Shown here: positions 2,967 through 29,521 of the stretch, piece after piece
Position numbering within the stretch: the first letter of the stretch is position 1
Layout: every line of letters begins with the position of its first letter
DNA from: a virus
Virus record (IMG/VR): IMGVR_UViG_3300042865_000903
Location: 1 to 29,521 of that record
DNA length: 29,521 nt
Strand: one strand, 5' to 3'
The notes under the pieces: generated by a model
Told to the model about the DNA's origin: nothing
Seen by the model: only the letters and a program-made list of their open reading frames with translations
Databases searched by the model: none
Translations under genes and position numbers: made by a program

Positions 2967-2971
2967 TAATG
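2964..2971 (+). other. Tandem-stop/start junction (TAATAATG)
   Basis: The first giant ends TAA followed directly by a second in-frame TAA whose last base is the A of the next ATG. No Shine-Dalgarno lies upstream, so the next gene probably starts by re-initiation or by AT-rich unstructured mRNA. Confidence 0.7.
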
Positions 2972-10546: not shown

Positions 10547-10552
10547 GAAATG
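10544..10552 (+). other. Same-frame TAG-GAA-ATG junction
   Basis: The second giant ends in a single TAG, followed by GAA and the ATG of the polymerase gene, all in one reading frame. The AGGA at 10545-10548 is only two bases from the ATG, too close to act as a normal Shine-Dalgarno. Readthrough of the TAG would fuse the two proteins. Confidence 0.8.
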
Positions 10553-13500: not shown

Positions 13501-16500
13501 TGCAGCAGGAGAAGACATCCCATCTTACTTGTTAAACAACTTAACTTTTATTGAGAAGATGATCACAAACTTTGGTGATCCAAAAGCTGCAGTAGAAGGT
13601 AAAGAAAAGTTTGGTGTTGTTGCATATCACTTGGAAAACTCAAGATTTAAAATTTTAAATAATACTTATACAGAGATTGATAATGATCCTACTAACATGC
13701 AGCAGTCTCAAACTTTTAAATTGGACAGTGGTAACACTATATCATCAAAAGATGAGGCAAGTGAAGCTACTAAAACTATATTAAGTAGTATTTATAAAGT
13801 TGACAGATCAAAGTTTGATTTTGAAGTAGTGGATGGTAAAACTAAATTCAATATTCAATATGAATTAAATGAATTTGGAGAACCAATACTAGTTGACATG
13901 GGAATCATGTGGAATAAGCTTGCTAAAATATTAGCGGGGTCCTTTGATAAAATTGAGATGTATAGTAGATTACATAATGCTATTAAATCTGAGCCAGAGA
14001 TTAAACAACTTTTAGCATTGCTTCCTGATCCATCAGCAAGTAATTACAATGACATTACTGAGTTTAATATTGATGTGAACTTCTGGCAAGATCTTAAAAA
14101 GCCAAGAATTTCTTATTTACAATTAAATGTAAACTCTACACCAATTAAAAAAGGTGAGGCTGTTTATGATGCTGTTGTAAGTAAAGCAGACTTTCCGGTT
14201 ACTAATGTTATCAGAGATTGGAATTTCATGTTTGTTAATGAAGACCCAACTACTAACATGTTTATGGTTTATGATCCAATAAACAATAGATATGTACTAG
14301 ATACTGAAAAGGTATTTAAAACATTTACTAATAATAAAGGGGATTTTAGATATGAATTATCAAAAGACTTTTTAAATGCAATTGGTATAAAATTAGATTA
14401 TACAAACAAAGCCATTAAAGAAATAACTGATGATCCAAGATTTGGTATCAGATATGGTGTTGACCATATATTTAGTACTATAAGAAGTGCTGTTGCTACT
14501 TCAAATACTGAAGCATTATTTATTGCAAGAAATCCAATTAAATATATCATGGAAGGTGTTACTAAAGACTTTAGTAGCAATGCTAAAATGAAGATATCTA
14601 ACACCCGTGTTAAAGAACTTGCAAGGTTGCAAGCAGCTAACTCTGATTTATATTCTAATTTTAGTGCCCTAAGTCCTGAAGGAAATAGAGTATGGGAACA
14701 TTTCTTAGATAATACAATTACTAGAAAGATAACATCAATCAATTTTGCTAAGTCATGGCAAGAACTTACCAGAGCAGAGGCAGATCCTTCAAATAAATTC
14801 CAACACATGCGTTGGTTATCTGAGGATATCAACCCTTACTCTTTACATTCTTATCTACTAGGTTCTCTTTTTGATTTGAAAGACAAAAAGAAACCTGCAG
14901 GAACTAGATTAAAAAATAATTTATTATTGAATAATGTTGCTGGTACACAGTTAATAGAACAAAGAAAAGGAGCTCAAGATAAAAAAGATGGTATTTCTAC
15001 TGCATCAATGGATGCAACAAGTAAGTTCTTACAAGAGATACATACTATGTTGATGAATGGTGTAGAAGAATTTATGAGACATGCTTCTAAACAAATGGCT
15101 CAAGGTTTGACTGTAACAGGAAAAATTGATACAGGTATTCCTAAAGGTGATAACAAATTATATGTAGACATCAAGAATTTTGCACCATATGGATTTGGTG
15201 AGTCAAGAGCTTTTGATATCATTTCTGGTTACATAATGGCTGAGTCTAATAGAATATTTAAGTTTGGTCTTAATAAAGACACTCTTAAAAACTATAAGGG
15301 TTATAACAAAGAAGTAACAAGAAAAGATAAAAAAAATACTAAGGTAATGGTCGGGGATGCATTTACTGCATTTGATGATGTTCTTACAGAAGATACACAA
15401 GCATTGTTATATGCTATCATAGACAAAGCTGTAGCAGATAAAAACACTTCTTTTGACATGATGGATGTGATTAATTCAGATCCTTCTTTGAGAGCTCTAC
15501 TAGAAGCAGAAACAACTGAGTATTTTACAAAACTTACTAAACAAAATCTTGATAGATTAGAACAAGCAAAATATATTGATACTGGTTTAAAAGAAAGAAT
15601 CCCTGGATTTGATAATCTTTCAGATGATGATGTTAATGAAATTCTTATAAAAGCTTATACATATAACTCTTGGATTCATAAATTTGAAACTGCTATTATA
15701 ATATATGGTGACTTAGCTCAGTACAATCATGAAAATGAAGAGTTCCACAAGCGTAATGCTGGTTTTGGTGGAGGTGGAAGAAGTTTCTCATCTGATAAAA
15801 AAATATTAGATTTTGTAAATTCTTTACCTACTTACTATTCAGATTCATTTGGTTTTAGTTCTAGAGCTTATGATGGTACTTTAAAGACAGCAATTCTAAA
15901 AGAAAGAATAATTGATGAATCAATTTACTATGATGAGTACTATGATGATGTATATAATGACTACTATTCTAGATTAAAAGATAAAGACAAAGCAAAACAA
16001 CTTACTGAAATAGCACTTAAAGGTTATAGAGGTATGGAGATTGGTGATGGTCAGGGGCATATTACATTTGAAGGATATAGAAAATTAAAAAATCTTGAAG
16101 GAAGTTGGTTACCAGAACAAGAAGAATTATACAAAAAAATTGCTAAAGGTGAAGATGTAGCTGCTGGTGACATTGTTAAGTTTTTTCCACCATATAAATT
16201 ACAGTATATAGGTAATATCAAATCAGATTTCTTACCAGTAACATCTTTTCATAAATTTTCACTTAATCCAATTATACCAGGTGTAGCAAAAAAAGGTACA
16301 CCAATGTATGATTTACATGAGAAAATGATGAGAGATCAACTTGACTATGTTGTATATGAATCTGGTTCTAAAGTTGGGCATATTGGTAAAGGTGATGAAA
16401 TATTTGATGCAGAGGGTAAAATAATTGAAGATAGCAAGTTTACTGTAAATACAATTTTCACAGAGTTCCTAAAGAACCAAACAGAAGTTAATGCTGATTT

Positions 16501-19500
16501 CAAAGGTACATCTATCTTCTCTACACAGATGAGAAAGTTAATCTTAGATAATCTTTATGAAAATGGTAATATTACTTCTGAATCAGCTAAACCAATTGTA
16601 GAAAAATATTTAAAAGATGTAACTGCATACACTGAAGTAGTTAAATTAAAACTATTAGAAGAAATTGGTTATGATGAAGTATCAGAAGGAGAGTACAAAC
16701 CAAGAGATAAAGACAGTATTTCTAAACTGTTAGAATTAATTAGAGCTAACTTAGAAAGAGAAGATGCTTATGGAAATGAGTTAATTGATTTCATTGATGC
16801 ATTGGATTCTGGTCAAATAGCAATTGACTTATCTTATCACCCAGAGGTACTTAAAATTGAAAAAGTACTTTTATCAATGATTAATAAAAGAATCATTAAA
16901 CAAAAAATTAAAGGTGAACCATTAGTACAAGTATCCTCAGCAATGTTTGAAAACAACATAAGTGGTATTGGAGATTTTACAAATGCTACAGATGCTGAGA
17001 AGAAAAAATGGAAAGGTAGTAATGTACTTCCTACATATCACAAGAAGGCTAATGGTAAAACTGCAGCAATGAAGGTTATGATTGCATTACAGGGGGACTA
17101 TGCTAACTTGTTGAATCTTGAGTATAATGGACAAATCATTGGTGATATCAAGACATTAAACAGAGCTATCAAAGATGATGCATGGTTAGATGCAAATGAT
17201 GGTGCTAACAGAAAAGCAATAACTCTTGTAGGGGTTAGGATTCCAGTTCAGGGTCTAAACTCTATGGAGTTCATGGAAGTATATGAATTCTTACCTCCAC
17301 AAGCAGGTAATATTATCATTCCTCCAGCAGAGATAGTTGCTAAGTCCGGGGGTGACTTTGATATTGATAAACTTACAATCTTCATGACTAATATTAATGC
17401 TGATGGTAAGTTAGCTGAACCAACTATGGCAGATATTGAAGCTATTAAAAATGCTGTAAAAGAAAAAAATGTTGCAGGTGAATCTTTAGATCAATTATTT
17501 AAAGAGCAAATGGCAGGTTTAGAAAATGAATTGATTAAAGATATTAAAGCTATATTGGAATTACCTGAGAACTTTGTGTCTCTGATCACTCCTAATGGTA
17601 CTTTCTTACTTAAAAAAACTGCAGATATGTTAGCTGAATATGTAATGCAGTATAACCCATATTCTACATTAATGACTCCAGGTAAGGAAAAACAAATTAG
17701 TCCTACTAGAGTTTTAGAGACAATGTATAATTTATACAAACATGAATCTAATATAGTAGGTAAGGCTACCCTTGGTCTTGGAGCAATTGAAAATACATTT
17801 AATATCTTATTAAATTCTATAGGAGCAAGTTTACCAAAAAATTATATGAGTAAACGTGGTACTAAAAATGAAAAGATAAGAGAAACAAGTCTTGCATTAA
17901 GACATCGTACAATAAATGTTAATGAAGAAGAAAGAATTTCTCTTTCAAATATCTATGATGTTGATAATGTAAATAAAATAGCAGATATATTCTCTCAAGC
18001 AATAAATGGTTGGGTGGATGTTGAAAAAGATGCATGGATATTCTTTATCCAAGGTAACTATGAAGTAGCACCAATATTATTATTCTTAGTTAAAGCTGGT
18101 GTACCAGTTAAAGAAGCTATTTACTTTGTATCACAACCATTAGTAAGAGAGTATGTAGACCAACAACGCTTAATAGGTTCTACATTTGCACCTATGTTAG
18201 GTAAAGCTGTAGATAGTCAAAACTTGGTTAAGCACACAGCTATGAAAGAAGTAATAGCTAATAATTTCCCAAAAAATATACTTCCTGCAGATGCAAAAGT
18301 TAAAACTATTCTTGATACTGCTGATTCACTTTTAGAAAAAGTAATGAAAGACAGAGATGAGAAAGTTTTTACTGAAAAAGGAATGTTAAAACTTATTGAA
18401 GAATCTGCAGCTGATCCAAGTAAAAAGAAAAGAGAGGTGTCATTAGCTATGTTCTTGCATTATTTGAAAATTGAAGATCAAATTAAAGGCTTGACAAAAG
18501 TTAAAATGAATGCAAATCCGGATACTAATACAGACACTACACTTACTAATATTGAGTTATCTGAAAATACCTTATCTGAATTAGTAAATGATGAATACAT
18601 GTCAGATTTAATTACAGGTTTGATGAATGATTCTGTTATTAGTTCCTTCTTTAACGGGCCCTTAGCGTTAGCTTTAAGTAGACCTTTGTTTAAATTAAGA
18701 TACAATAAAATATTCAGTGATTACATAATCACTTTAAAGAAGACCGGTTTACTAGATAAAATTGTAGATAAAACTTTTAATGGAAATGAAAAAGGTTTCA
18801 TTAATGCATTCAGAAATGATCTTGTAAGTTATATTTTCCAAAATGCTTTACTTAAAGATAAGCTAGGAGACAGTTACATGTCTTATGATTTGAAAGAAAC
18901 TGCAGATATTAAAAGTTTTGAATCTAAGTATTTTGGAGCTTATGTGAAAACTAACAAGGATGGATCTAAAACTTTATTTGTTAATGATGATGTTTTAAAA
19001 TTACAATTTGAAAATAAAGCTTGGGCTACATCAAATGAAAATTCTAAAAATCCATATAAGGTATTAGGTTTACATCAAGTAGATGAGATGACTTTTACAG
19101 GAATTGAAAAAGGTCAAAACTTTAACCAGTATAAGAAATTTGTGCTTGAAAGAGAATATTTGAGAAGCATTTATCCTAAAGAAGAATCTCAATCTAAAAA
19201 AGAATATGAAAAATTCTTAGCAGAGAAAGCACTAGACAATACATATAATTTCAACCATCTGTTCAATAATGTAAATACTGCATATGCAAACAGAGTATCA
19301 AAAGTTATATTTGACTATCCTTTGTTAACCAAAGAATTTGATGTTCTCTCAGTATTAAAATCTGAATCAAACTTTGACCAAACTATATTCAACTTAGGTA
19401 TTGCCGATAGAGATATCAACAGTACTAAAGCTAATATGTTTATAAGTAATTTTAAAGATTTAGCTAATCCTGTAGTTCTAAAAACTTTTGCTAAAGAGTT

Positions 19501-20422
19501 AAAGCTAAATGATGCTGACATAAAGAAAATAACTGATTTGTTTTCTATGTTACCTACTTTTGCATACTTACAATCTGGTATAAATAAGTCTTCTTATAAC
19601 TTAGTACCATTTGTGGATTATACTAAAGTAATTGATATCATTCAAGATGCCGGTAATGAACTTATAGAATTAATAGATAAAGATCCTCTAAAAGGTATCT
19701 TTATACTTAATGACTACTTAAATAAGTTTGAGTTTGCAAATAACAAAGTAACAAACCCAACTAAAAAAGAGTTTAAGAATTACTTGACTGATTTTGATGT
19801 AAATAAAATACAAGTTGCTAAAGAATCTACTACTCAACCAGCTACTGAAGCTGAAATAAAAACAGAAGTTTCAGATTTGATTGAAACAAAAGAACCAAAT
19901 GTATTTTTATATGATTCTAAGAGTAAAGACAGTAAATACTATAAAAATTTAACAGACAAAAATTCTAAAGTTATTTTCTTGCATTCATTTACTAACTCAG
20001 AATTTGAAGATAGTAGAAATAAAAATCATACTGAGCAATCTGTAATGCAATTGCATGCACCAGATATGAGTATTCCTGTTATAATTTCTCTTGACAAAAA
20101 TGATAATTTATCTGAACTTTCTAATGATGACAAAGAGCTTATTAAAGAGTACTGGAGCAAAATTTTAAGTACTGCCGAAAACATTAAGGAAAAAGGTGGC
20201 AACATTGCCCTTCCTACAGCAGGATTTGGAAATCCAAACCTTATGCCTCAAGATTTATTTGTATATTTAAGTAGGGAGTTATATGAAAAATTAGGATATT
20301 TGAACCCTGGTTCTCTTTTACATAAAGAGATAGATGATCTAATAGTTAGTAAACAAGGAATATCTGATGAAGAAATCTTACAAGCGTATGGTTTTGAGAC
20401 AGATCCTTTTAATTGTGTATAA
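10550..20422 (+). CDS. 3290-aa virion RNA polymerase with N-terminal zincin
   Basis: Contains the catalytic loop of the single-chain two-barrel RNA polymerases: GGDFDIDKL with D2269, D2271 and D2273. It is preceded by R2230-I-P-V-Q-G and LPPQAGNII at 2248, which parallel the segment before NADFDGD in cellular beta' subunits. A likely first-barrel strand (MKVMIALQGDY, from 2174) lies upstream. A helical block at about 2381-2426 may be the bridge-helix or trigger-loop region. An N-terminal zincin has H769-E770-A-W-H773, with E812 in the IAEDF segment as candidate third ligand. From 3117 to about 3250 there is a small alpha/beta domain ending GGNIALPTAGFG. In phi14:2 gp66 (about 2180 residues) this polymerase is carried in the virion and transcribes early genes; this protein is much longer, mainly by N-terminal extension. 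Start is the ATG three bases after the upstream TAG. The polymerase call is firm; promoter and substrate details are not visible. Confidence 0.95.
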   Translation: MACALNKEQIKDLYVALYGEVFDRMSTDKPFDLSIEGIVKEIYEGVKNATGEADKALLYAQAIPDIFSSVALNAKANKYLRANKFSLDALGDMRVKFEDLKYVQELVSPKKETFEDVEEKLKEATKSKNDVKISDDAELSPTDLEKRNAAKITFPNRTSLQTSRSKNPTEFKKGDDRNPDDKIKSVFNIVQKNIVAVITYRSLTETDVIYQGVPLILSVTRASAFPDKLKLREHLIASDKESVGVFAVITDKDGNYIYFDKDGNITDEENGTVVYTFLRKVEIIDGKLTLLYTRTLGDGKQYTYKNTLVNAEKLANDEADLFAKQGGEITQDWVDIRTQEIFEQQTALMNGLYNLRNSAEETDEPIKLNITGGSLGIAPDAYVKTVKELGISKEDLSTFDIIKDKFNSKIGVPVITIFIDTPVGKISQLINLIYGDFDERLAEKVATVLTTKAKLSTGKELDAQQRLDYFKIFINNTIYYPNEFNRENIFLTLKDGNLTVTMKDYEGTVTVFSGDDLYTQKAKETIKRHLKLREINENGKDLPVSVHYTDVYKDTSFTDFTVEGDKIIARPVEYLEFIKDYAKARYSKEYQQYNYGNNPYLTYEIPAEFMGDTEYEIVVEDEKVTIPAPKTNEEKYKEVRTAPKATEEIPFAEELNDIIDDTTDMIDLSDIPDDIDFDVDAFERNKSLGNFLDRLFTNKADKERVDDWWKNSPLNKDSQHAKNKKYKHLGLIGLERISKVVNSDAFATFMGTGITLYEGDGGTPIDIYHEAWHGFSQLFLTKPEKIRLYRDLKGQPKWANKSYFEIEEDIAEDFRDYARSRGKKEAPKGFLGQVFRRIYQFLENLFGKVNITQAKLRPRDIASVKEMFDMLYEASARPELLQHMEPSTKNMMFTKLNRAKVIKPVSAYKTEYKEFTESESLKAANLVDSILPKIFLKYNQSKNNTAGAIKILYNNNNRVAMYNTVLGVLKKKFDAYRLESAQLAAAGEDIPSYLLNNLTFIEKMITNFGDPKAAVEGKEKFGVVAYHLENSRFKILNNTYTEIDNDPTNMQQSQTFKLDSGNTISSKDEASEATKTILSSIYKVDRSKFDFEVVDGKTKFNIQYELNEFGEPILVDMGIMWNKLAKILAGSFDKIEMYSRLHNAIKSEPEIKQLLALLPDPSASNYNDITEFNIDVNFWQDLKKPRISYLQLNVNSTPIKKGEAVYDAVVSKADFPVTNVIRDWNFMFVNEDPTTNMFMVYDPINNRYVLDTEKVFKTFTNNKGDFRYELSKDFLNAIGIKLDYTNKAIKEITDDPRFGIRYGVDHIFSTIRSAVATSNTEALFIARNPIKYIMEGVTKDFSSNAKMKISNTRVKELARLQAANSDLYSNFSALSPEGNRVWEHFLDNTITRKITSINFAKSWQELTRAEADPSNKFQHMRWLSEDINPYSLHSYLLGSLFDLKDKKKPAGTRLKNNLLLNNVAGTQLIEQRKGAQDKKDGISTASMDATSKFLQEIHTMLMNGVEEFMRHASKQMAQGLTVTGKIDTGIPKGDNKLYVDIKNFAPYGFGESRAFDIISGYIMAESNRIFKFGLNKDTLKNYKGYNKEVTRKDKKNTKVMVGDAFTAFDDVLTEDTQALLYAIIDKAVADKNTSFDMMDVINSDPSLRALLEAETTEYFTKLTKQNLDRLEQAKYIDTGLKERIPGFDNLSDDDVNEILIKAYTYNSWIHKFETAIIIYGDLAQYNHENEEFHKRNAGFGGGGRSFSSDKKILDFVNSLPTYYSDSFGFSSRAYDGTLKTAILKERIIDESIYYDEYYDDVYNDYYSRLKDKDKAKQLTEIALKGYRGMEIGDGQGHITFEGYRKLKNLEGSWLPEQEELYKKIAKGEDVAAGDIVKFFPPYKLQYIGNIKSDFLPVTSFHKFSLNPIIPGVAKKGTPMYDLHEKMMRDQLDYVVYESGSKVGHIGKGDEIFDAEGKIIEDSKFTVNTIFTEFLKNQTEVNADFKGTSIFSTQMRKLILDNLYENGNITSESAKPIVEKYLKDVTAYTEVVKLKLLEEIGYDEVSEGEYKPRDKDSISKLLELIRANLEREDAYGNELIDFIDALDSGQIAIDLSYHPEVLKIEKVLLSMINKRIIKQKIKGEPLVQVSSAMFENNISGIGDFTNATDAEKKKWKGSNVLPTYHKKANGKTAAMKVMIALQGDYANLLNLEYNGQIIGDIKTLNRAIKDDAWLDANDGANRKAITLVGVRIPVQGLNSMEFMEVYEFLPPQAGNIIIPPAEIVAKSGGDFDIDKLTIFMTNINADGKLAEPTMADIEAIKNAVKEKNVAGESLDQLFKEQMAGLENELIKDIKAILELPENFVSLITPNGTFLLKKTADMLAEYVMQYNPYSTLMTPGKEKQISPTRVLETMYNLYKHESNIVGKATLGLGAIENTFNILLNSIGASLPKNYMSKRGTKNEKIRETSLALRHRTINVNEEERISLSNIYDVDNVNKIADIFSQAINGWVDVEKDAWIFFIQGNYEVAPILLFLVKAGVPVKEAIYFVSQPLVREYVDQQRLIGSTFAPMLGKAVDSQNLVKHTAMKEVIANNFPKNILPADAKVKTILDTADSLLEKVMKDRDEKVFTEKGMLKLIEESAADPSKKKREVSLAMFLHYLKIEDQIKGLTKVKMNANPDTNTDTTLTNIELSENTLSELVNDEYMSDLITGLMNDSVISSFFNGPLALALSRPLFKLRYNKIFSDYIITLKKTGLLDKIVDKTFNGNEKGFINAFRNDLVSYIFQNALLKDKLGDSYMSYDLKETADIKSFESKYFGAYVKTNKDGSKTLFVNDDVLKLQFENKAWATSNENSKNPYKVLGLHQVDEMTFTGIEKGQNFNQYKKFVLEREYLRSIYPKEESQSKKEYEKFLAEKALDNTYNFNHLFNNVNTAYANRVSKVIFDYPLLTKEFDVLSVLKSESNFDQTIFNLGIADRDINSTKANMFISNFKDLANPVVLKTFAKELKLNDADIKKITDLFSMLPTFAYLQSGINKSSYNLVPFVDYTKVIDIIQDAGNELIELIDKDPLKGIFILNDYLNKFEFANNKVTNPTKKEFKNYLTDFDVNKIQVAKESTTQPATEAEIKTEVSDLIETKEPNVFLYDSKSKDSKYYKNLTDKNSKVIFLHSFTNSEFEDSRNKNHTEQSVMQLHAPDMSIPVIISLDKNDNLSELSNDDKELIKEYWSKILSTAENIKEKGGNIALPTAGFGNPNLMPQDLFVYLSRELYEKLGYLNPGSLLHKEIDDLIVSKQGISDEEILQAYGFETDPFNCV

Positions 20423-20427
20423 AAATG
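20420..20427 (+). other. Tight stop/start junction (TAA AA ATG)
   Basis: The polymerase gene's TAA and the next ATG are separated by two A bases and lie in different frames. It is the third 2-3 base gap in a row, which supports coupled translation of the giants. Confidence 0.7.
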
Positions 20428-23400
20428 GTTTGTGAGGTTAAAGAAAATGCAATAAAAACTTTGATGAAAACAAAGTCTGTTGATGATTCAAGAAAAATTA
20501 TCAGTGATACTTTGTTTGAAAAAGTAAATAGAGCTCTAACAGATATTGCTATAGAAAAGTATGGTCTTGAAACAAATGGTCAGTTACTGTTTGATAAAAC
20601 AAGTAAACAACTTGTTGATGAAAGAACCTCTACATACAGAAGGGATACTACCATTACTGTTGAAAGAGCAGAACCAAATGAACCATTGTTTCAACAGTTA
20701 CAAATTTTAAAAACTAACTATGATAGTGCTAAAGCAATAGCTGATCAGTCAATAATGCCTGATGCGGATAAAGCTAAACAAGAACAAATTACTTTAGAGT
20801 TTAATTCTGGTTATGATGATAACAGTTTTAATCTAGATATAGTAAAAAATGGTACTAAAGTAGGTGACATAAATTATAAACTAGAAGGTAATATTGCTAC
20901 AGTAGATGCAGTTGAAATTTATCCTGAATATAGAAATCAAGGTATTGCTATAAGGGCCTATAAAGAACTAAATAAAAGTTTAAGTAGAACTAATATTGCT
21001 TTAAGAAGCGGTAATTTAAATGAAAATAGCACCGGGGTTTGGAAAGGTTTAGTTAGAAGAGGTTTGGCTAAAGAAATAAATCCAGGCTCTTATGAATACA
21101 CAAACTATAAAGAAGGTGAGCAGTTAACTTTATTCCAATTAGAGAATGAAAAAGTTTTAGAACCTGCTATCAAAGAATTAGATAATTACCTGTTAGATTT
21201 TCTTAAACCTTTTGGTGTAAAAAGTAAAGAGTTTGCAGATCTTAAATCTAAATTGGGAGTTGATGCTTTGGGAGCTACTGATGTTTTAAATAAACTTATC
21301 TGGTACAGTACACATAGAAATGCTGAAACACTGCCTGAAGAAGCAGCCCATATGATAGTAATGTTAATGGGTGAGCAAAATAAAGCTATAAAATATTTAA
21401 TAAATAATATCACAACTTGGTCTGAATACTCAAGTATAAAAGCACAATATATGCCTTTATACAATAATGAAAAGCAAGTTAAGATTGAAGCTGTTGGTAA
21501 ATTAATTGCTAAAGCATTAGTTAAAAATTACAAAGCAAGTGGTTTAGATAAATCATTATTAGACAAAGCTTTAGAATTACTTTATGAAGTTTTTGAAAAG
21601 CTGAGAGGTATTTATAAGAATAACATACTTGCTCAAATGGAGTATAATGATAGAGTTGCTGATCATATTGCAATTAATGTATTAATGGGTGATAAAGATT
21701 ATATTGCCAAATTAGCCACATCTACTGCTAAATTAGACTATGAGAAAGCATTATCAGGTAATGAATTTGCTCAAGATATCATAAATGTATTTAGTAAACT
21801 AAATGCTAAACTTACAGGATCACTTGCTATTGCTGCACAAGGAGACGCAATATATAGAAGTTCAGAAGAACCTATACATGATATTGATTTTTCTGTACAG
21901 AATAAAGAAGACTATGAGGTTATGCTTGAAAAAGTTGAATCTATAAATGGTGTACCTTATCATTATGGTTGGGATAGTGATGCTAAAGAATATACAACTT
22001 ATGCTTTTTTAATTCCTAAAGAAGGTCTCACTGTTGAAGTTTTATCAAGAGATTTTAATAGAGGAAATGGTTGGATTACTGCATACAATCTTAGAGATAA
22101 AGATGGCAATATTGTAAAAGCAACAAGTCAGAATCACATGGCTGTAGATTTTTTTGTACATAAAGACAATATTGACACTGGTGGTTCAAAAGGTATACAT
22201 AAAAGTACTGCTGTTATATTTAAAGGTAAACTTAGTTTGTCACCTTTGAGTAGTAGAGAAAGAATGTTTGCTAGACCTAAAGATCAACAAGATTATGTCT
22301 TACATCAACCTACAGATCTTTCAGAATCATTTCCACAGTTTACATACTTTCAATTAAACAGTGAAGAACCACAAACATTAAACATTGATCTTGAGTCAGT
22401 AAATAATGCAAGAACTAAAGAAGTTGCTGAAGTACTTGCAAAAAAACTTGCTGCTCAAATGAATACAGATTTTTTTAGCGTATCACCTGAGGAAGCACAA
22501 AAAATCTTAGAAAATAGTTCTAAACCTTATATGGGAGAGCCTGCATTTTATTTTGCAGGAGGTGTTTATTTTGTAGGAGATAATGTAAATATTAACACTG
22601 TTCTACATGAATTCTCACATCCTTTTATACAAGGTATTAGAAGATCTAACCCAGAATTATTTGAAAATTTATTTGCATCACTGTCAGAAACAGATGAAGG
22701 TCAAGCAATAATTGCTCATGTTAAAAAATTATATCCTGAACTTGGTCAAGACACACCTCTTTTTAAAGAAGAAGTTTTAGTTTATGCTTTACAATTAGAT
22801 GCTGTAAATAAAGTTAATGATAAAGTTGCATCAGAAGGTTTTGCAGCATTTATTAATCAGTTATTAGCTGCATTAAAAAAGTTTTTACGTGAGACATTTG
22901 GGACTGGTGTAAATGTAAAAAACCTAAGTTCAGCAACAACTATCTCTGACTTAGGAGATATATTACTTAGTGATACAGAAATAGACCTTGATTTAGGAAC
23001 TAAATCAATTACTGAAGCTGATGTAGTAATGTATTATAAAGAAGTAGTAGAAAGAGCGGAAGATTTATTAAAGAATTCCTCTCCAGAAGCAGTTCAGTCT
23101 ATAGTAAACTATACTTACTTGAATGGTAAAGCTACTTTAAATAAAGCTAGAGAGTTTAATACCGGTAAGGACAGCGTAAATAAAGCAATGTTGCAAAGAG
23201 CTTTATTAAAAGAAGGTAACACAGAATTATTACCTGCTGTAGATAAAAGTTTAAAAGGGTTCCAAGATGTTAATCCTACAAATAATGTTTCACCGGAATC
23301 AATAATTGAAAATGCAATTAATGCTGAAGAAAAATTACAAGAACTTGCCTTGATAAAAGCAACTGCTCTTGTTAACAGTATTGACCGTATCAAAAGTGCA

Positions 23401-26400
23401 AGTATAAATACATTAGGTGAGCTTAGAGTTATTGATGAAAATGCATCTTTAATAAACAATAGAAATGTTGTTGCTTTACTTGCTTTATATAGTTCTACAG
23501 CAAATTCTTGGATAGGTTTAATAAATGAAATAAATGAAATCCTTGAAGACTATACAATAGGTACAGATGGTTTATTTTATCAAACTCTAAATGAAGTTTT
23601 GAACAATTCAACCATGATTGTTAAAAAGATTGGAGAAATATATAAGAAAAATAATGTTCAACTTTTTGTTCAGATTACTGGTTACATGACAGACTTTGTT
23701 CAAAACCAGTTAAATGATAACTTAAAGATAGCTCTAAAAAAACTACCTCTTGAGGAACAAGAAAATGAAGTTACTGACTTGTATAATAAAGTTATTAGCA
23801 ATACTATAACAGATGCTGATTTGGAAAGACTTTACCAAAAAGGTGTTCCAAAAGAAGTATTAGATAGATTTGTTCAACAATATAATACTTATGTACTTAA
23901 TGAAGATAAAATATCTGATATCTTATCTGGTAAAACAAAAGATGTAAGCTGGTTCAATAGATGGTTAGAATCTTATTCATCAAGTAATGACCCTATAGTA
24001 GGTTCACTTGCTATGTATATTCAAAATGAAAAAACTGAAGTAGAAAATGAAGTATGGAATAAGTCTCAAATATTTAGAAATGTCTTAGCTAAGCTTTTAC
24101 CACAGGTTAACTTTAGCAAGTTAAATTCTTTACAGATTAGAGACATGGTGGCTACAAGAGACACCATCTTTTATATTGACAAGCAAACTGGAAAACCTGT
24201 TCCTAAAGAAGTATACACATTCCTTAATGAATTTGGTAATGGCTGGAGATATGAAAAAGATAATTTAGAGTATGAATATGCTTTAGCTAAAGACAGTGGA
24301 GATAAAAACAAAACTGCACAAGCTCTTGATAGATTGAGACAATTCAATAAAGCTTATATGTGGCAAGAATTTGTTCCAGAGCTTTATGAGAAGGATGATA
24401 TCTTTAATGAATCTGAGATAGGGAAACTTGCATACTTAGCTAAGAAAACTGCTTTTGATAATTTCTTAAACTTACAAAACCAGTTTGAAAAAGAACTTGA
24501 AAGATTTGAAAATTACAGTACTATAGAAGCGGCCTTTAGAGCATATCAACAACTGTACTCTTTACACTATGAAGATGCTACAGAAAAAGTTGATGATCCA
24601 GCTAATGGTATATATGACAAGTCTATTGCTGAATTACTTATTAAACATAGAAATGCAACCAGTGAGTTTTATGAATGGGTTTCAATTCCTAATTCATTAT
24701 CTACAGCATACAATGAATTTGTTACTGAATTAGAGGCTAAAAGAATAAAAAGAGGTACTGATAAGTTCCAAGCTGAATTAAGAAAGTGGGAAAAACAAAA
24801 CATCAAAATTAAATATTCACAAGAATTCTATGAAAGAAGAGCTAATCTTTTAAATAGACTTACTGAGATCCAAAAAAACATGAGAGAAACCATGAACTTG
24901 GATTTTGATATTTCTGCTGCATACAAAACTATTTCTGATTTAATCTTTACATACCGTGATGAGTTTGGTCAACCTGACACAACTCAATTAGGTAAAGACA
25001 GATTAAGAAAGATAAAAGATCTAGAACAAGAAATTATAAATTTCAGAGCTAAGTTTGATTACAGAACCGGTTTATCTAAAGAAGATGCTAATACATTAAG
25101 CTTCTTATTGGAAAAGTCAAAAGTAGAAGACTTAAATACAAATGAAGCTATGCTTTTAAATGAACTAATTCAGAAACAAAAAGCTAAAGGGGTTGATGTA
25201 GAATTGGTTGAGGAAATGACGGATATTTTTAACTCCTTGTCTAATTTATCTAGCAACCTTCCTACAGAATACTATTTAGATGCATTAAACATGCGCTTAT
25301 CTAAATTCAATGTTACAGAAGTGACTGAAACAACAGTAGATAACTTTATTAATTCTGAAGAATTTACTGATTTGCTTGTACAAGATGAAGAACTAAGAAA
25401 ATGGTTTAACATAAATCACATTGAAGTTAAAAGATATGATAAAGGTAAAGAGGTTGATAAGTTCCAAAGAACTTCAGCTAACTCCGTAATGAGACCTAAA
25501 GAGGGTAAGTACTATGAAACTACTACAATCTTTGATAATGAAACCGGTGAAGAAGTTACTTTACTAGGTGTTCCTAATGCAAGACATTCAAGAAGAGAAG
25601 TAAAAGATAAGTATAGAACTATACCAAGAGGTGCTGTAAGAGAAGACTATATTGGTAAATATGTGGATAATAAAGGTGAATATTTACCTAGATTATTTCA
25701 ACCAGGAACTAAATACAGTGCCCTAGATGATAGATTTATTGATAAGAGATACCAAACTTTAAAAGCTAATCCTGACTCACCTGAATTTAAGTTATTGGAA
25801 GCTATCAAAGAGCATCATTTAGACATGCAAAAAAATGGTAGTAACTATGGTAAATTATATATGGATGTACCAAGATATAGTACTAAAAAAGGAGATTTCT
25901 ATCAAGCATTCCAAAAAGGTCAATATGGGGATAAATTCAAAAACATTAACTCTAATGTTAAAGAATGGTTGAAGCAAAAATTTGGTAAGTCAACAGAAGA
26001 TTACTTAAATGACTTTAACTATGATGCTGACAATAACTTAGTAAATACAGATTTAAATGGTGATGAGATATCATACATTCCTGTTACAGGTATATTTAAT
26101 CTTGATGCTGATGTAGTTGATGCAGATATATTCAATTCATTGTTTAGATATGCATTGTCTCTTCAAACACAAAAACAATTATATAAATCTTTACCACTAG
26201 TTAAGTCAATTATATCCACACTAGAAGATCCAAAAAATCAACCTAAGAATTTACAGAAAAAATCTAAACAGCTACAAGATGGTAAAAATAAAATTAGAGC
26301 TTTTGTAAATTTAAAAACGGATACTTATAACAGATTAGAACAAATTAGATCTCTTATTGATAGAGAATACTTTGGTAGAAAAGTAGTAGGTATGGAAGAA

Positions 26401-27945
26401 GCAAACCCAAGACTTACAAAATGGTTAAGTAATTTAACCAAATGGTCAAGTAGATCTTCTTTGATGATGAATATACCTTCTGATTTAAAAAATCAGTTCT
26501 CAGGTTATGTTCAAACTATTATTGAATCTTCAGGAGGTAGATTTGTTACAGGAAAAGACTTAGCATTATCTTCAGCATGGGCTACTAAAGCTATGATGGA
26601 TTGGACAATGAATGGTATGTACACAACAGGACCGGGAAATTTATCTAGTCAGTTAGTTCAAATATTTGATCCAAACTTTAAAACTACTGATGAGTATGGT
26701 AATACTGTTTACAAAAGTTTATTTAAAGATTTGATGAACTTTGAATGGACTTACATGCATAGAAAATTTGGTGAGATGGATGTAGCAATGAGATTATTTG
26801 GTGCATTCTTGTATGGTCAAAAACTTGAACAAGACTTAATAAGTGGTGATAAAGCTACAATAAGATATGTTGATGCATGGGAAACTGATGAGAATGGTGT
26901 TGCTAGATTAAAAGCTGGTATTCACCCAGGATGGAGTAATCTTTCAGTTTATCACACATACCAAAAAGGAGAAACTCTTGAAGAAATTGCTAAAAAATAT
27001 AATGTAACAGTAGAAGAACTTAAAGCTAAAAACAGAATTAAATCTCAAATTCAATTAACAGAAGGACAAGAAATTGTCATTGCAAAATCTGAAAAGTATA
27101 AATTATTTAAAAACAGATTACAAGGTACTTCAAGAGCACTATTTGGGGTTTATGATGACTTTGGACAACCAGAAGGTAATAAGTTATTACTTTACAGAAT
27201 GTTTTTCTTTATGAGAAAATGGTTTACTCCAATGTTTACTAACAGATTTGGTATGGATACAGCTAAAGAAAACTTTGGTGGTGCTAGATATGATTGGGCT
27301 TTAGGAAAAACTACAAAAGGTTTTTACATAAATTCATTACAGGTAATATATAGAGGTTTAAAATCTAAAGGTGTAGAGTTTCAGTTCATGACTGAAGATG
27401 AAAAAGCTGATTTAAGAAGAGCTATGGCTGAAGGTATGATTGTTACCATGTCAGCATTACTAGCATCATTATTATTTGGCTATGAAGACGGTGATGAAGA
27501 TAGATGGAAAAAAATAAAAGAAAGATCAGGACCAATAAACTCTGATAATTTTAATACATATGGCTTCCTTGCTAATCATGCTCTCTTATTACTATTAGGA
27601 GTACAAGCTGAAACAGGTGCATTTATTCCATTACCAAAAATTACTGTAAATGGTGTATCAGTTAATCTTGGTGCTGATGATTACTCAAAGTTATTAACTT
27701 CAACTAGTACAGCATTTAGTAATACGGTTCTTACTTATATGGAGATCTTTGGAGATATACTAAATTTTGCCACAGCAAGTGATGCAAATAAATACAAAAA
27801 AGATGTAGGACCATACTGGTTCCAGAAAAAAGGTGAAAATAAAATTTACAAAAGAGTATTTAGTTTGTTAGGTTTTAGTGGTGGTACAGGAGATCCTGAA
27901 ACATTGATTAAAAACTTATCAAAAGGTGCAACAAGAATCAGGTAA
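20425..27945 (+). CDS. 2506-aa virion protein: GNAT, zincins, NTase, LysM
   Basis: I chose ATG 20425, two bases after the upstream stop, over an in-frame TTG at 20413 that lies inside the preceding gene. Domains from that ATG: a GNAT acetyltransferase at about 120-225 (YPEYRNQGIAIRAY, with R170 and G173 in the acetyl-CoA loop); a zincin-like site E305-E306-A-A-H309 with E355 downstream; a nucleotidyltransferase fold with G465-S466, D486-I-D488 and E538; a canonical zincin H728-E729-F-S-H732 with E782/E783 as third ligand; about 1300 mostly helical residues; a LysM domain at about 2174-2222 (QKGETLEEIAKKYNVTVEEL); and hydrophobic segments near 2337-2352 and 2381-2394. LysM binds peptidoglycan, so the C-terminus probably meets the cell wall during entry, with the hydrophobic parts touching membrane (inference). 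No signal peptide, as expected for a virion protein. Tandem TAA TAA ends the gene. Confidence 0.92.
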   Translation: MVCEVKENAIKTLMKTKSVDDSRKIISDTLFEKVNRALTDIAIEKYGLETNGQLLFDKTSKQLVDERTSTYRRDTTITVERAEPNEPLFQQLQILKTNYDSAKAIADQSIMPDADKAKQEQITLEFNSGYDDNSFNLDIVKNGTKVGDINYKLEGNIATVDAVEIYPEYRNQGIAIRAYKELNKSLSRTNIALRSGNLNENSTGVWKGLVRRGLAKEINPGSYEYTNYKEGEQLTLFQLENEKVLEPAIKELDNYLLDFLKPFGVKSKEFADLKSKLGVDALGATDVLNKLIWYSTHRNAETLPEEAAHMIVMLMGEQNKAIKYLINNITTWSEYSSIKAQYMPLYNNEKQVKIEAVGKLIAKALVKNYKASGLDKSLLDKALELLYEVFEKLRGIYKNNILAQMEYNDRVADHIAINVLMGDKDYIAKLATSTAKLDYEKALSGNEFAQDIINVFSKLNAKLTGSLAIAAQGDAIYRSSEEPIHDIDFSVQNKEDYEVMLEKVESINGVPYHYGWDSDAKEYTTYAFLIPKEGLTVEVLSRDFNRGNGWITAYNLRDKDGNIVKATSQNHMAVDFFVHKDNIDTGGSKGIHKSTAVIFKGKLSLSPLSSRERMFARPKDQQDYVLHQPTDLSESFPQFTYFQLNSEEPQTLNIDLESVNNARTKEVAEVLAKKLAAQMNTDFFSVSPEEAQKILENSSKPYMGEPAFYFAGGVYFVGDNVNINTVLHEFSHPFIQGIRRSNPELFENLFASLSETDEGQAIIAHVKKLYPELGQDTPLFKEEVLVYALQLDAVNKVNDKVASEGFAAFINQLLAALKKFLRETFGTGVNVKNLSSATTISDLGDILLSDTEIDLDLGTKSITEADVVMYYKEVVERAEDLLKNSSPEAVQSIVNYTYLNGKATLNKAREFNTGKDSVNKAMLQRALLKEGNTELLPAVDKSLKGFQDVNPTNNVSPESIIENAINAEEKLQELALIKATALVNSIDRIKSASINTLGELRVIDENASLINNRNVVALLALYSSTANSWIGLINEINEILEDYTIGTDGLFYQTLNEVLNNSTMIVKKIGEIYKKNNVQLFVQITGYMTDFVQNQLNDNLKIALKKLPLEEQENEVTDLYNKVISNTITDADLERLYQKGVPKEVLDRFVQQYNTYVLNEDKISDILSGKTKDVSWFNRWLESYSSSNDPIVGSLAMYIQNEKTEVENEVWNKSQIFRNVLAKLLPQVNFSKLNSLQIRDMVATRDTIFYIDKQTGKPVPKEVYTFLNEFGNGWRYEKDNLEYEYALAKDSGDKNKTAQALDRLRQFNKAYMWQEFVPELYEKDDIFNESEIGKLAYLAKKTAFDNFLNLQNQFEKELERFENYSTIEAAFRAYQQLYSLHYEDATEKVDDPANGIYDKSIAELLIKHRNATSEFYEWVSIPNSLSTAYNEFVTELEAKRIKRGTDKFQAELRKWEKQNIKIKYSQEFYERRANLLNRLTEIQKNMRETMNLDFDISAAYKTISDLIFTYRDEFGQPDTTQLGKDRLRKIKDLEQEIINFRAKFDYRTGLSKEDANTLSFLLEKSKVEDLNTNEAMLLNELIQKQKAKGVDVELVEEMTDIFNSLSNLSSNLPTEYYLDALNMRLSKFNVTEVTETTVDNFINSEEFTDLLVQDEELRKWFNINHIEVKRYDKGKEVDKFQRTSANSVMRPKEGKYYETTTIFDNETGEEVTLLGVPNARHSRREVKDKYRTIPRGAVREDYIGKYVDNKGEYLPRLFQPGTKYSALDDRFIDKRYQTLKANPDSPEFKLLEAIKEHHLDMQKNGSNYGKLYMDVPRYSTKKGDFYQAFQKGQYGDKFKNINSNVKEWLKQKFGKSTEDYLNDFNYDADNNLVNTDLNGDEISYIPVTGIFNLDADVVDADIFNSLFRYALSLQTQKQLYKSLPLVKSIISTLEDPKNQPKNLQKKSKQLQDGKNKIRAFVNLKTDTYNRLEQIRSLIDREYFGRKVVGMEEANPRLTKWLSNLTKWSSRSSLMMNIPSDLKNQFSGYVQTIIESSGGRFVTGKDLALSSAWATKAMMDWTMNGMYTTGPGNLSSQLVQIFDPNFKTTDEYGNTVYKSLFKDLMNFEWTYMHRKFGEMDVAMRLFGAFLYGQKLEQDLISGDKATIRYVDAWETDENGVARLKAGIHPGWSNLSVYHTYQKGETLEEIAKKYNVTVEELKAKNRIKSQIQLTEGQEIVIAKSEKYKLFKNRLQGTSRALFGVYDDFGQPEGNKLLLYRMFFFMRKWFTPMFTNRFGMDTAKENFGGARYDWALGKTTKGFYINSLQVIYRGLKSKGVEFQFMTEDEKADLRRAMAEGMIVTMSALLASLLFGYEDGDEDRWKKIKERSGPINSDNFNTYGFLANHALLLLLGVQAETGAFIPLPKITVNGVSVNLGADDYSKLLTSTSTAFSNTVLTYMEIFGDILNFATASDANKYKKDVGPYWFQKKGENKIYKRVFSLLGFSGGTGDPETLIKNLSKGATRIR

Positions 27946-27963
27946 TAATTAAAAACAAATACA

Positions 27964-28083
27964 ATGGCAGCTAAAACAAAATCAGTGAAAGTTTCAAGAC
28001 CGGGAATTCACGCAAAGACAAAAACTTCAAAAAGTAAAATGTCTAAGAACTACAAAAAAATGTACAAAGGTCAAGGGAGATAG
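27964..28083 (+). CDS. 39-aa basic conserved phage protein
   Basis: Encodes 39 residues: a short start, then SRPGIHAKTKTSKSK and SKNYKKMYKGQGR. It is extremely basic (14 Lys/Arg, no acidic residue) and lacks hydrophobic stretches. From memory, near-identical short proteins with RPG-hAKTKTSK and NYKK-Y-GQGR occur in crAss-like phages next to virion genes; I cannot run a search to confirm it. It begins 18 bases after the giant gene's stop, in an A-rich leader with ATGG start context like the giants, and its TAG is followed at once by the shared terminator, so it is the last gene of the operon. Function unknown; binding nucleic acid inside the capsid is one guess from charge. Confidence 0.85.
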   Translation: MAAKTKSVKVSRPGIHAKTKTSKSKMSKNYKKMYKGQGR

Positions 28084-28090
28084 AAAAAAA

Positions 28091-28114
28091 AGGGAGAGCC
28101 GTTAAGCTCTCCCT
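28091..28114. terminator. Shared hairpin terminator between convergent operons
   Basis: A perfect 9-bp stem (AGGGAGAGC paired with GCTCTCCCT) with a 6-base loop sits in the 34-bp gap between the plus-strand basic gene and the minus-strand 59-aa gene. Seven A bases at 28084-28090 become a U-tract after the hairpin when read on the minus strand, so it is a standard intrinsic terminator leftward. On the plus strand only a weak AATTTAATC follows the stem, so rightward termination may be less efficient. Confidence 0.85.
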
Positions 28115-28117
28115 AAT

Positions 28118-28297
28118 TTAATCTTCATCACAACAGTCACATTCTTCATCTGACTCTTGTTTACCATATTCATTATCAAACCATTCTCTAGCTTCTGCTT
28201 TAGTAGGTCTTTCATAACAACCACAATCCATAACAGTTGCACCTGCTAAGTATGCTTCAATCATAAGTTTTCTAAAGACTACTGGATGCATAATCAT
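28118..28297 (-). CDS. 59-aa cysteine-rich small protein, unknown function
   Basis: Starts at the ATG at 28297, which shares its A with the stop of the upstream 55-aa gene (TAATG), and ends TAA four bases before the terminator stem. A second ATG, two codons in, is possible. The N-terminal half is a short amphipathic helix (HPVVFRKLMIEAYLAGATV). It then has DCGCYE (C25, C27), a helix KAEAREWFDNEYGK, and an acidic tail with C53, C55 and C56 (ECDCCDED). The paired CxC and CxCC groups could bind a metal ion, but the tail may be disordered. I recognise no family. Overlap, spacing and the terminator make it a real gene rather than a chance frame. Confidence 0.75.
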   Translation of the reverse strand: MIMHPVVFRKLMIEAYLAGATVMDCGCYERPTKAEAREWFDNEYGKQESDEECDCCDED

Positions 28298-28464
28298 TAA
28301 TTTAAATCATCATTACTAATATAGGTTTTTCTAATTCTTTCTCTTGTAATATTAAAAACACCTTTTCTATTTTCTCTAAACTTAAATCTATTGTAACTGA
28401 TTGGACACATTAAATCTAACTTTATTACTTTTTTTCTGTTTCTGTTTTTATTTGTTTTGCTCAT
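28297..28464 (-). CDS. 55-aa basic small protein, unknown function
   Basis: Encodes 55 residues beginning MSKTNKNRNRKKVIKLDLMC and ending SNDDLN. It is strongly basic (about 16 Lys/Arg) with a Lys/Arg-rich head, a central CPISYNRFKFRENRKGVF segment and a helical RERIRKTY tail. There is no membrane segment and no family that I recognise; charge suggests nucleic-acid or ribosome contact, only a guess. Its TAA overlaps the ATG of the 59-aa gene by one base, so translation of the two is probably coupled. No Shine-Dalgarno is visible before the ATG; the leader is AT-rich. Confidence 0.7.
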   Translation of the reverse strand: MSKTNKNRNRKKVIKLDLMCPISYNRFKFRENRKGVFNITRERIRKTYISNDDLN

Positions 28465-28482
28465 TTTCAATAAATTGTTTTA

Positions 28483-28505
28483 AGTTTGGTTTAAAATAGT
28501 TTGGT
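28483..28505. repeat. Direct repeat AGTTTGGT x2 in divergent intergenic region
   Basis: Two exact copies of AGTTTGGT at 28483-28490 and 28498-28505, 15 bases start to start, lie in the 81-bp gap between the leftward 55-aa gene and the rightward endonuclease gene. The spacing, about one and a half helical turns, and the location would suit an operator or promoter element, but the sequence is AT-rich and two 8-mers are weak evidence. Confidence 0.35.
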
Positions 28506-28533
28506 CCTTTTAAGATTTTATAAAAATTTTTCA

Positions 28534-28541
28534 TATATTTG
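28534..28541 (+). promoter_or_regulatory. Possible Bacteroidota-type -7 box (TAnnTTTG)
   Basis: TATATTTG matches the TAnnTTTG -7 element of Bacteroidota primary sigma promoters. It ends four bases before the endonuclease ATG at 28546, which would make the transcript leaderless or nearly so. No clear TTTG -33 element is found 19-21 bases upstream; the nearest TTTG is 30 bases away, so this is a weak call. Confidence 0.3.
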
Positions 28542-28545
28542 TTTT

Positions 28546-29256
28546 ATGTGTTATACTTATTTAATAAAATGCACCATTAATAATAAGTTTTATTATGGTG
28601 TTAGATGGGGTAATAAGCTTCCCCCTTCTCAGGATTTATGGATCAAATATTTTACTTCAAGCAAAATAGTAAAAAAATTAATTCAAGGCTATGGAAAAGA
28701 ATCATTTATTTTTGAAATAAGAAAAACTTTCAAAACTAAAACTGAAGCTATTTCTTGGGAAGAAACAGTTTTAAGAAGATTAAAAGTTTTGAAAAATTCA
28801 AATGTCTGGTTAAATAAATGTATATCAAAAGCTATAAGATATGATATACATCCTAAAACAGGTAAACTCGTATCTACTGAGACAAGAAATAAAATTAGCA
28901 AATCCAATTTAGGTAAATCAAAATTTACAAATGATCAAAAAATATTAATGTCACTAAATAGAAAAGGTTCACTACATTGGAATCATGGTAACACATGGTC
29001 TAATGAAGTAAAACAAAAAAATTCAAATAGTAATAAAAATAATTGGCTTGAAATAAAAAAGGATCCAAAAGCCATGCAATTACACAAAGAAAAATCAATT
29101 GCTAAAAGTGTAAAAACATGGCTTTTAGAAAATCCATTTGGTGAACAATTTACAATTACAAATCTGAATGCATTTTGTAGAAACAACAAATTATATGCAT
29201 CTAATTTACATGCAAAAGGTCATTGTAAAGGATATAAATTAATTCAAAGATTATGA
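28546..29256 (+). CDS. GIY-YIG homing endonuclease with NUMOD3-like motif
   Basis: 236 residues from ATG 28546; an in-frame TTG at 28501 would add 15 residues ahead of the GIY-YIG start and is not favoured. The GIY-YIG core runs from residue 1: Y3-T-Y5 (GIY element), Y16-Y17-G18 followed by R20 (YIG element), a helical stretch, and a candidate catalytic Glu in W71-E72-E73. A NUMOD3-like DNA-binding motif follows (STETRNKISKSNLGKSK, 110-126). The C-terminal part (about 198-232) reads like the FCRNNKL-x-x-SNL-x-x-x-x-GY DNA-binding repeat common in phage homing enzymes. Such enzymes cut a site in related genomes so that their own gene is copied in. It stands alone on the plus strand between leftward genes, and its last 13 bases overlap the MazG-like gene's 3' end. 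No intron halves are visible around it, so it looks free-standing. Confidence 0.88.
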   Translation: MCYTYLIKCTINNKFYYGVRWGNKLPPSQDLWIKYFTSSKIVKKLIQGYGKESFIFEIRKTFKTKTEAISWEETVLRRLKVLKNSNVWLNKCISKAIRYDIHPKTGKLVSTETRNKISKSNLGKSKFTNDQKILMSLNRKGSLHWNHGNTWSNEVKQKNSNSNKNNWLEIKKDPKAMQLHKEKSIAKSVKTWLLENPFGEQFTITNLNAFCRNNKLYASNLHAKGHCKGYKLIQRL

Positions 29257-29519
29257 TTATTATAAATAATAGGTTCTAATCTAGGGGGATGGTAGGATTT
29301 TCCTTTTAAGATTTTACCATCTTCTCTCATGATTGCTTTACCATCTTCTCCAACTTTACTCATGTTGCTAGAATGAATCTCATCAAATACTTTTTCTATG
29401 ATATCTTGCATACCATGTTTAAGTATAGTACCACACAATATATAAAGTTTATCACCTAAAGCATCTGCAATTTCTGTAAGATCTCCTTTATCACAGCCAT
29501 CAAAATATTCATCATTTTC
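29244..29519 (-). CDS. MazG-like NTP pyrophosphohydrolase, N-terminus cut
   Basis: 91 C-terminal residues are visible; the frame is open to the right window edge, and the TTG at 29438 is internal. The residues carry the MazG/phosphoribosyl-ATP pyrophosphohydrolase signature: ENDEYFDG (an ExxE metal-binding helix), then LTEIADALGDKLYILCGT with the second ExxD pair, and the tail SNMSKVGEDGKAIMREDGK typical of phage members. These all-alpha enzymes hydrolyse nucleoside triphosphates to monophosphate and pyrophosphate with Mg2+; in phages they probably adjust nucleotide or alarmone pools. It belongs to the leftward gene block and ends in TGA inside the endonuclease gene's 3' end. The last residues (EPIIYNNHNL) lie in or next to the overlap and may have been changed by the endonuclease insertion. 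Confidence 0.85.
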   Translation of the reverse strand, partial: ENDEYFDGCDKGDLTEIADALGDKLYILCGTILKHGMQDIIEKVFDEIHSSNMSKVGEDGKAIMREDGKILKGKSYHPPRLEPIIYNNHNL

Positions 29520-29521
29520 TT

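Follow-up and report, generated by a model that had tools for sequence, protein, structure and literature searches.

Organization of the MazG locus

The window, meaning the whole stretch of DNA analyzed, covers 29,521 nucleotides of the IMG/VR virus record IMGVR_UViG_3300042865_000903. A homing endonuclease gene near its end is antisense to its neighbours on both sides, a MazG-like gene and the two small ORFs 28118-28297 and 28297-28464, all of which are on the minus strand. ORF coordinates and strands bear out the preliminary description in this arrangement, and also in the 13 bases (29244-29256) that it assigned to the 3' ends of both the endonuclease and the MazG-like genes. The features at the locus are as follows.

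28297-28464, minus strand: next gene, 55 aa, with its start codon within the native MazG tail
28448-28504, minus strand: native MazG tail in its displaced position, PNYFKPNLKQFIENEQNK plus stop, matching the empty-site relative L005
28448-28534, minus strand: possible 28-codon mini-ORF, opened by an ATG of the element and continuing in frame into the displaced tail (putative translation)
28505-28520, minus strand: direct repeat copy 2, TAAAATCTTAAAAGGA, 16 bases, far junction
28534-28541, plus strand: candidate Bacteroidota -7 promoter box TATATTTG, 5 bases before the endonuclease ATG
28546-29256, plus strand: GIY-YIG/NUMOD3 homing endonuclease gene, ATG start, 236 aa, with Pfam and PHROG matches
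29244-29256, both strands: overlap of the replacement tail with the endonuclease C-terminus, 13 bases
29244-29300, minus strand: element-borne MazG replacement tail KSYHPPRLEPIIYNNHNL, 18 codons and stop
29244-29519, minus strand: MazG-like gene, whole frame, partial (open at the window end, stop at 29244)
29301-29316, minus strand: direct repeat copy 1, TAAAATCTTAAAAGGA, 16 bases, MazG-side junction
29317-29519, minus strand: recipient-type MazG body up to the repeat, 73/73 residues as in L005, PRA-PH domain

The endonuclease matched the Pfam families SegE_GIY-YIG (PF19835, E 6.6e-6) and NUMOD3 (E 3.5e-4) as well as PHROG 314 (homing endonuclease, E 5.3e-20), and it combines a GIY-YIG nuclease domain with a NUMOD-type DNA-binding motif, as a SegE-type enzyme does. 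The residues Y5, Y17, G18, R20, E72, E73, and N90, which we take to have catalytic roles, were invariant in five of five homologues. Judged from its substitution ratios, the gene is under purifying selection (pN/pS of 0.19, 0.10, and 0.08 for three pairs, with few differences), so the element looks alive. The consensus of the Bacteroidota -7 box is TAnnTTTG; the upstream TATATTTG fits it, was kept in seven of the eight distinct occupied sequences described below, and is a candidate promoter of the endonuclease.

About 40 N-terminal residues of the MazG-like protein are missing from the window (full length is 131 aa in the relative L068). The gene had a PRA-PH/MazG-like Pfam/PHROG match (E 3.5e-5), and the solved structures matched by its family profile were Deinococcus DR2231 and a related NTP pyrophosphohydrolase. 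The predicted structure of the native MazG also matched the DR2231 fold. When positions 22000-29521 were compared with phages by blastn, only the MazG stretch was matched (12 records).

Empty sites among relatives

Searching IMG/VR with the MazG fragment yielded 34 loci, 28 of which were close (L002-L029). The endonuclease was present in only two of these 28 (L002 and L003) and is thus far from being shared by all relatives at this spot; 25 had a native tail and no endonuclease, and one (L015) was cut ahead of the tail. In the 25 loci without the endonuclease, the native-type ending was mostly KGPxYFKPNLxxF. The empty site and the original MazG C-terminus that the preliminary description had proposed to look for were both found, in L005, L004, and others, and this C-terminus is unlike that of the window. 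Specifically, the window has its empty sister in L005, whose MazG is identical over 73/73 residues and then has another ending, PNYFKPNLKQFIENEQNK followed by the stop in place of KSYHPPRLEPIIYNNHNL and stop, and which lacks the element. The replacement tail KSYHPPRLEPIIYNNHNL is missing from the empty relatives and common to the window, L037, and L068. A degenerate DNA pattern for the window tail matched only two contigs, both with the endonuclease, so that no relative was found in which the same tail occurs without it.

The native MazG tail was not lost in the window. It lies at 28448-28504, beyond the endonuclease gene. Past the far junction, the window and L005 were identical over 60/60 bases, and they matched at 385/401 of the next ~400 bases. 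Between the two copies of the direct repeat are the 18 new MazG codons and stop on the minus strand and the endonuclease on the plus strand. Of 390 MazG relatives, the best 80 were checked for a further tail motif downstream, which was present in 5/5 loci with the endonuclease and in 0/75 of the others; in several of these 75 the downstream DNA is short, and L086 breaks off inside the tail.

Relatives differed widely in the gene next to the MazG 3' end (for example, L059 3017-3628, L061 1334-1762, and L007 3255-3455), so this flank is variable in gene content even without the element.

One element in different recipients and several lineages at one site

Nine records were occupied, namely the window, 3300042292_001643 (L002/L036/L069/L071), 3300042382_000657 (L003/L037/L070/L072), L068, L038, L039 (also L055/L083), L040, L087, and L092. 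Since 3300042292_001643 and 3300042382_000657 were identical over the 2000 bases compared, they were counted once, giving eight distinct sequences. L038, L039, and L040 came from the endonuclease scans, and L087 and L092 from the MazG scan (best 80 of 390). The GIY homologues L062-L067 (33-44% identical) adjoin other genes and were left out of this count.

The window, L037, and L068 share an element of ~0.8 kb at 96.8-98.8% identity over 812 bases, while the adjacent MazG bodies are only 79.9-85.4% identical. For example, the window and L037 matched at 802/812 bases (98.8%) of the element and 159/199 (79.9%) of the MazG body, and their downstream DNA was unrelated (213/430), with different downstream genes. 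L068 matched the window at 788/812 bases of the element and had close downstream DNA (380/403). Each recipient also had an orphan tail of its own, PNYFKPNLKQFIENEQNK in the window, PQYFKPNLQQFL in L037, and PQYFKPNLKQFVEEYEQK in L068. L037 has an empty sister, L007, which matched it at 54/60 bases of the orphan tail and 379/401 bases downstream. A shared element beside recipient-specific orphan tails is as expected from homing into different recipients, and the site is polymorphic for presence, being empty in L005 and occupied in the window, L037, and L068.

Across the eight occupied sequences, the endonucleases were 47-98% identical (47-67% when lineages are compared, with L039 and L087 falling into a single lineage at 81%). 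In every one, the gene lies antisense at the MazG 3' end and is accompanied by a tail of its own, and the recipient tail is displaced beside the endonuclease start. The recurrence of this antisense, convergent placement in eight distinct sequences argues that the arrangement is not due to chance. The overlaps measured 13, 13, and 13 bases in the window, L037, and L068, followed by 21 in L038, 32 in L039, 0 in L040, 32 in L087, and 0 in L092. Of the five element lineages, three thus have bases common to endonuclease and replacement tail, and the separation of the two in L040 and L092 indicates that the shared bases are not essential. In L087 and L092, the MazG proteins were 90% identical, the endonucleases 63%, and the element tails different, indicating entry of different elements into similar recipients.

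The hybrid MazG gene

The occupied MazG gene is a hybrid, in which the 5' part of the recipient is joined to a 3' part of the element. The preliminary description had held that the mobile gene partly sets the last residues of MazG, which proved correct and goes further, in that the whole run of 18 terminal codons is replaced along with the stop; the 13 overlapping bases on which it had centered make up only a small share of what is exchanged. It had also proposed that the insertion re-makes the stop codon. A new stop is indeed supplied, but the insertion lies 18 codons upstream rather than at the stop.

The replacement and native tails had equal bases at 30/57 positions, and a Y-x-x-P motif was retained in the replacement tail. 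The Y and P of the tail were invariant in 18/18 aligned MazG proteins, including those of L068, L037, L038, L039, and L040, which have element tails. AlphaFold models reached a mean pLDDT of 94.6 for the native MazG of L005 and 92.7 for the hybrid of L068. Both models contained the same elements, including a helix from residue 122, and the extreme C-terminus of the hybrid was uncertain. With the motif kept and the DNA recoded, the hybrid MazG would be expected to work while its gene resists the enzyme.

The far junction and a possible leader ORF

In empty loci, the next gene starts close to the MazG stop: it begins within the MazG tail in L005 (MSKTNKNRNRKK...), and the next ATG lay -25 to +2 bases from the MazG stop in 19 of the 22 empty loci tested. 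An in-frame ATG ahead of the displaced tail was found in seven of the eight occupied sequences, the exception being L040. In the window, it would open the putative mini-ORF, the stop of which overlaps the start of the next gene by 17 bases. Given the usual distance in empty loci, the mini-ORF may keep translational coupling for the next gene, and part of the pattern may come from common descent of the junction.

Proposed mechanism

The feature is very probably a homing element of ~0.8 kb that consists of a GIY-YIG gene and an antisense replacement 3' end for the MazG-like gene. At the level of sequence comparison, this reading is carried by the empty and occupied sites, the hybrid gene, the displaced tail, the several recipients, and the divergent lineages at one site. 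During co-infection, a predicted activity of the endonuclease would cleave an empty phage genome in its native MazG 3' region, and repair templated by the occupied genome would copy in the whole element. The MazG body of the recipient would then be fused to the tail and stop of the element, and its old tail would end up beyond the endonuclease, beside the point where the next gene starts. The resulting gene is predicted to resist the endonuclease through its recoded 3' end and to encode a functional hybrid enzyme.

Counting against this reading, the displaced tail is native from the repeat onwards; the target must therefore reach upstream of the junction, as self-cutting would otherwise result. 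The cut need not fall at the junction, since the T4 free-standing endonucleases described in PMC2988022 often cleave at a distance from their own genes.

Tentatively, phages may have evolved such spare-end homing elements independently, with shared bases that link the endonuclease to the tail that patches the gene and makes it immune, and a far-end ATG that restores coupling, a proposal to which we give somewhat less than even weight. If true, the displaced tail would serve as a leader ORF via the ATG of the element, and the insertion would be mended at its two ends.

Alternative explanations

It is improbable that the locus represents a split gene, in which MazG is broken and the displaced tail acts as a separate peptide in trans, like the split nrdA of Aeh1. 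The in-frame ATG before the displaced tail in seven of eight occupied sequences would suit such a peptide, and phage precedents with working products are among the cases presented in PMC2988022. However, L040 has no such ATG, the upstream MazG part already has a complete tail including the invariant Y and P, and the native and hybrid MazG are predicted by their models to share the same elements.

Even less probable is an ordinary intergenic free-standing endonuclease beside a diverged MazG tail, with an incidental overlap, or a chimaeric contig. Free-standing T4 endonucleases do overlap their neighbours by 11-24 bases in the examples of PMC2988022, although in sense. The displaced native tail in 8/8 distinct occupied sequences, the abrupt change of identity at the repeat, and the same anatomy in nine records count against this explanation, and in the window it is refuted by the identity of the orphan tail to the native tail of L005. 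An equally slight probability attaches to removal of the insert from the product, through a spliced intron or ribosome hopping between the repeats to yield native MazG. The 16-base direct repeat does end in the same GGA codon at both junctions, and T4 gene 60 hopping uses matching codons, but the endonuclease and MazG lie on opposite strands, some 0.8 kb would have to be bridged, the family motif kept in the element tail would be needless in a skipped stretch, and no Rfam intron match was obtained up to E 1 on either strand of 27900-29521. A group I intron was rejected on this last result, and an intein was also considered and rejected for the MazG-site insertion.

Comparison with known systems

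The gene-end exchange favored here is of a kind known from yeast and mitochondria. The WHO elements, reported at FBA1 in Torulaspora and Lachancea yeasts, consist of an endonuclease gene and a replacement 3' end for the target; in the account given by PMC7282813, the recipient 5' part is likewise fused to the 3' end of the element, the old 3' end persists as a fragment past the endonuclease, and an abrupt divergence sets the 3' part off from the 5' part. They differ in having intein-like zinc-finger (LAGLIDADG-type) enzymes, in residing in yeast nuclear genomes, and in an FBA1 fragment of ~400 bp (PMC7282813). In contrast, the phage element has a GIY-YIG enzyme, is antisense, replaces at least 18 codons, and has overlapping coding in some lineages. 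A WHO element proper was rejected because the enzyme is GIY-YIG and not of the intein-like zinc-finger type, though the phage element appears to work like one.

The mORFs of fungal mitochondria, described for atp6, atp9, cox2, and nad3 of Allomyces and Glomus, also bring a foreign C-terminal part that creates a hybrid gene, with the native C-terminus displaced downstream, and the atp9 case described there involves a GIY-YIG enzyme (PMC3630166). These are mitochondrial, with one-strand transcription and an endonuclease that is sometimes in phase with the gene in the cases described (PMC3630166), whereas here the endonuclease is antisense to its target and in a phage. The free-standing Seg enzymes of T4-like phages resemble the window enzyme in the SegE-type GIY-YIG domain (PF19835), the lack of an intron, and the short overlaps with neighbours; the parts of PMC2988022 that describe them place them between genes or splitting genes, with no mention there of a replacement gene end.

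The best reading is thus a phage counterpart of WHO elements and mORFs, in which homing would swap in a cleavage-resistant 3' end. What is new is its occurrence in a phage, antisense to the target, with shared bases in three of five lineages. In the open-licence literature, searched mostly through titles and the starts of abstracts, no precedent was recognised for a phage homing element carrying the end of its target gene, and a search of the open-licence literature found no paper linking homing endonucleases, MazG, and crAss-like phages. The locus suggests that phages also use the gene-end-swapping route of yeast and fungal mitochondria, by which a mobile gene can enter compact phage coding sequence without an intron, an intein, or loss of the target. 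Recurrent homing would explain the abrupt changes of the MazG-like C-terminus between near-identical phages.

Other features of the window and its relatives

A second, different GIY-YIG endonuclease was found just upstream of MazG and in the same direction in L011 (2157-2900), L027 (2157-2918), and L038 (5070-5813, minus strand), where it overlaps the MazG start by 20, 38, and 11 bases, respectively. These genes may be a mirror case at the MazG 5' end. Additionally, L062 (3983-4555) and L065 (262-903) have a GIY-YIG relative (39-44% identical) that is convergent with another gene, presumably encoding a T4 gp32-type protein. The overlap with the gp32-like gene is 33 bases in L062; L065 is without a stretch, and the endings of the gp32-like protein and of the endonuclease both differ. 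A simple motif search found no displaced tail at L062 or L065.

The window also contains giant ORFs at 2969-10546 (2525 aa), 10550-20422 (3290 aa), and 20413-27945 (2510 aa, with a LysM domain). A PHROG scan covering three of the giant ORFs returned exonuclease and LysM-type matches only, and tblastn of the 2510-aa ORF against 50,697 phage records gave no match. They are followed by a small and highly basic ORF (39 codons, MAAKTKSVKVSRPGIHAKTKTSKSK...) at 27964-28083 on the plus strand, ahead of a terminator-like hairpin (28091-28114, both strands) at the boundary between the giant genes of the plus strand and the MazG block of the minus strand. Finally, L068 (JAIOYD010000080.1), a phage contig of the same group, has been deposited as part of a public Rickettsiaceae MAG, a placement that is probably due to mis-binning.
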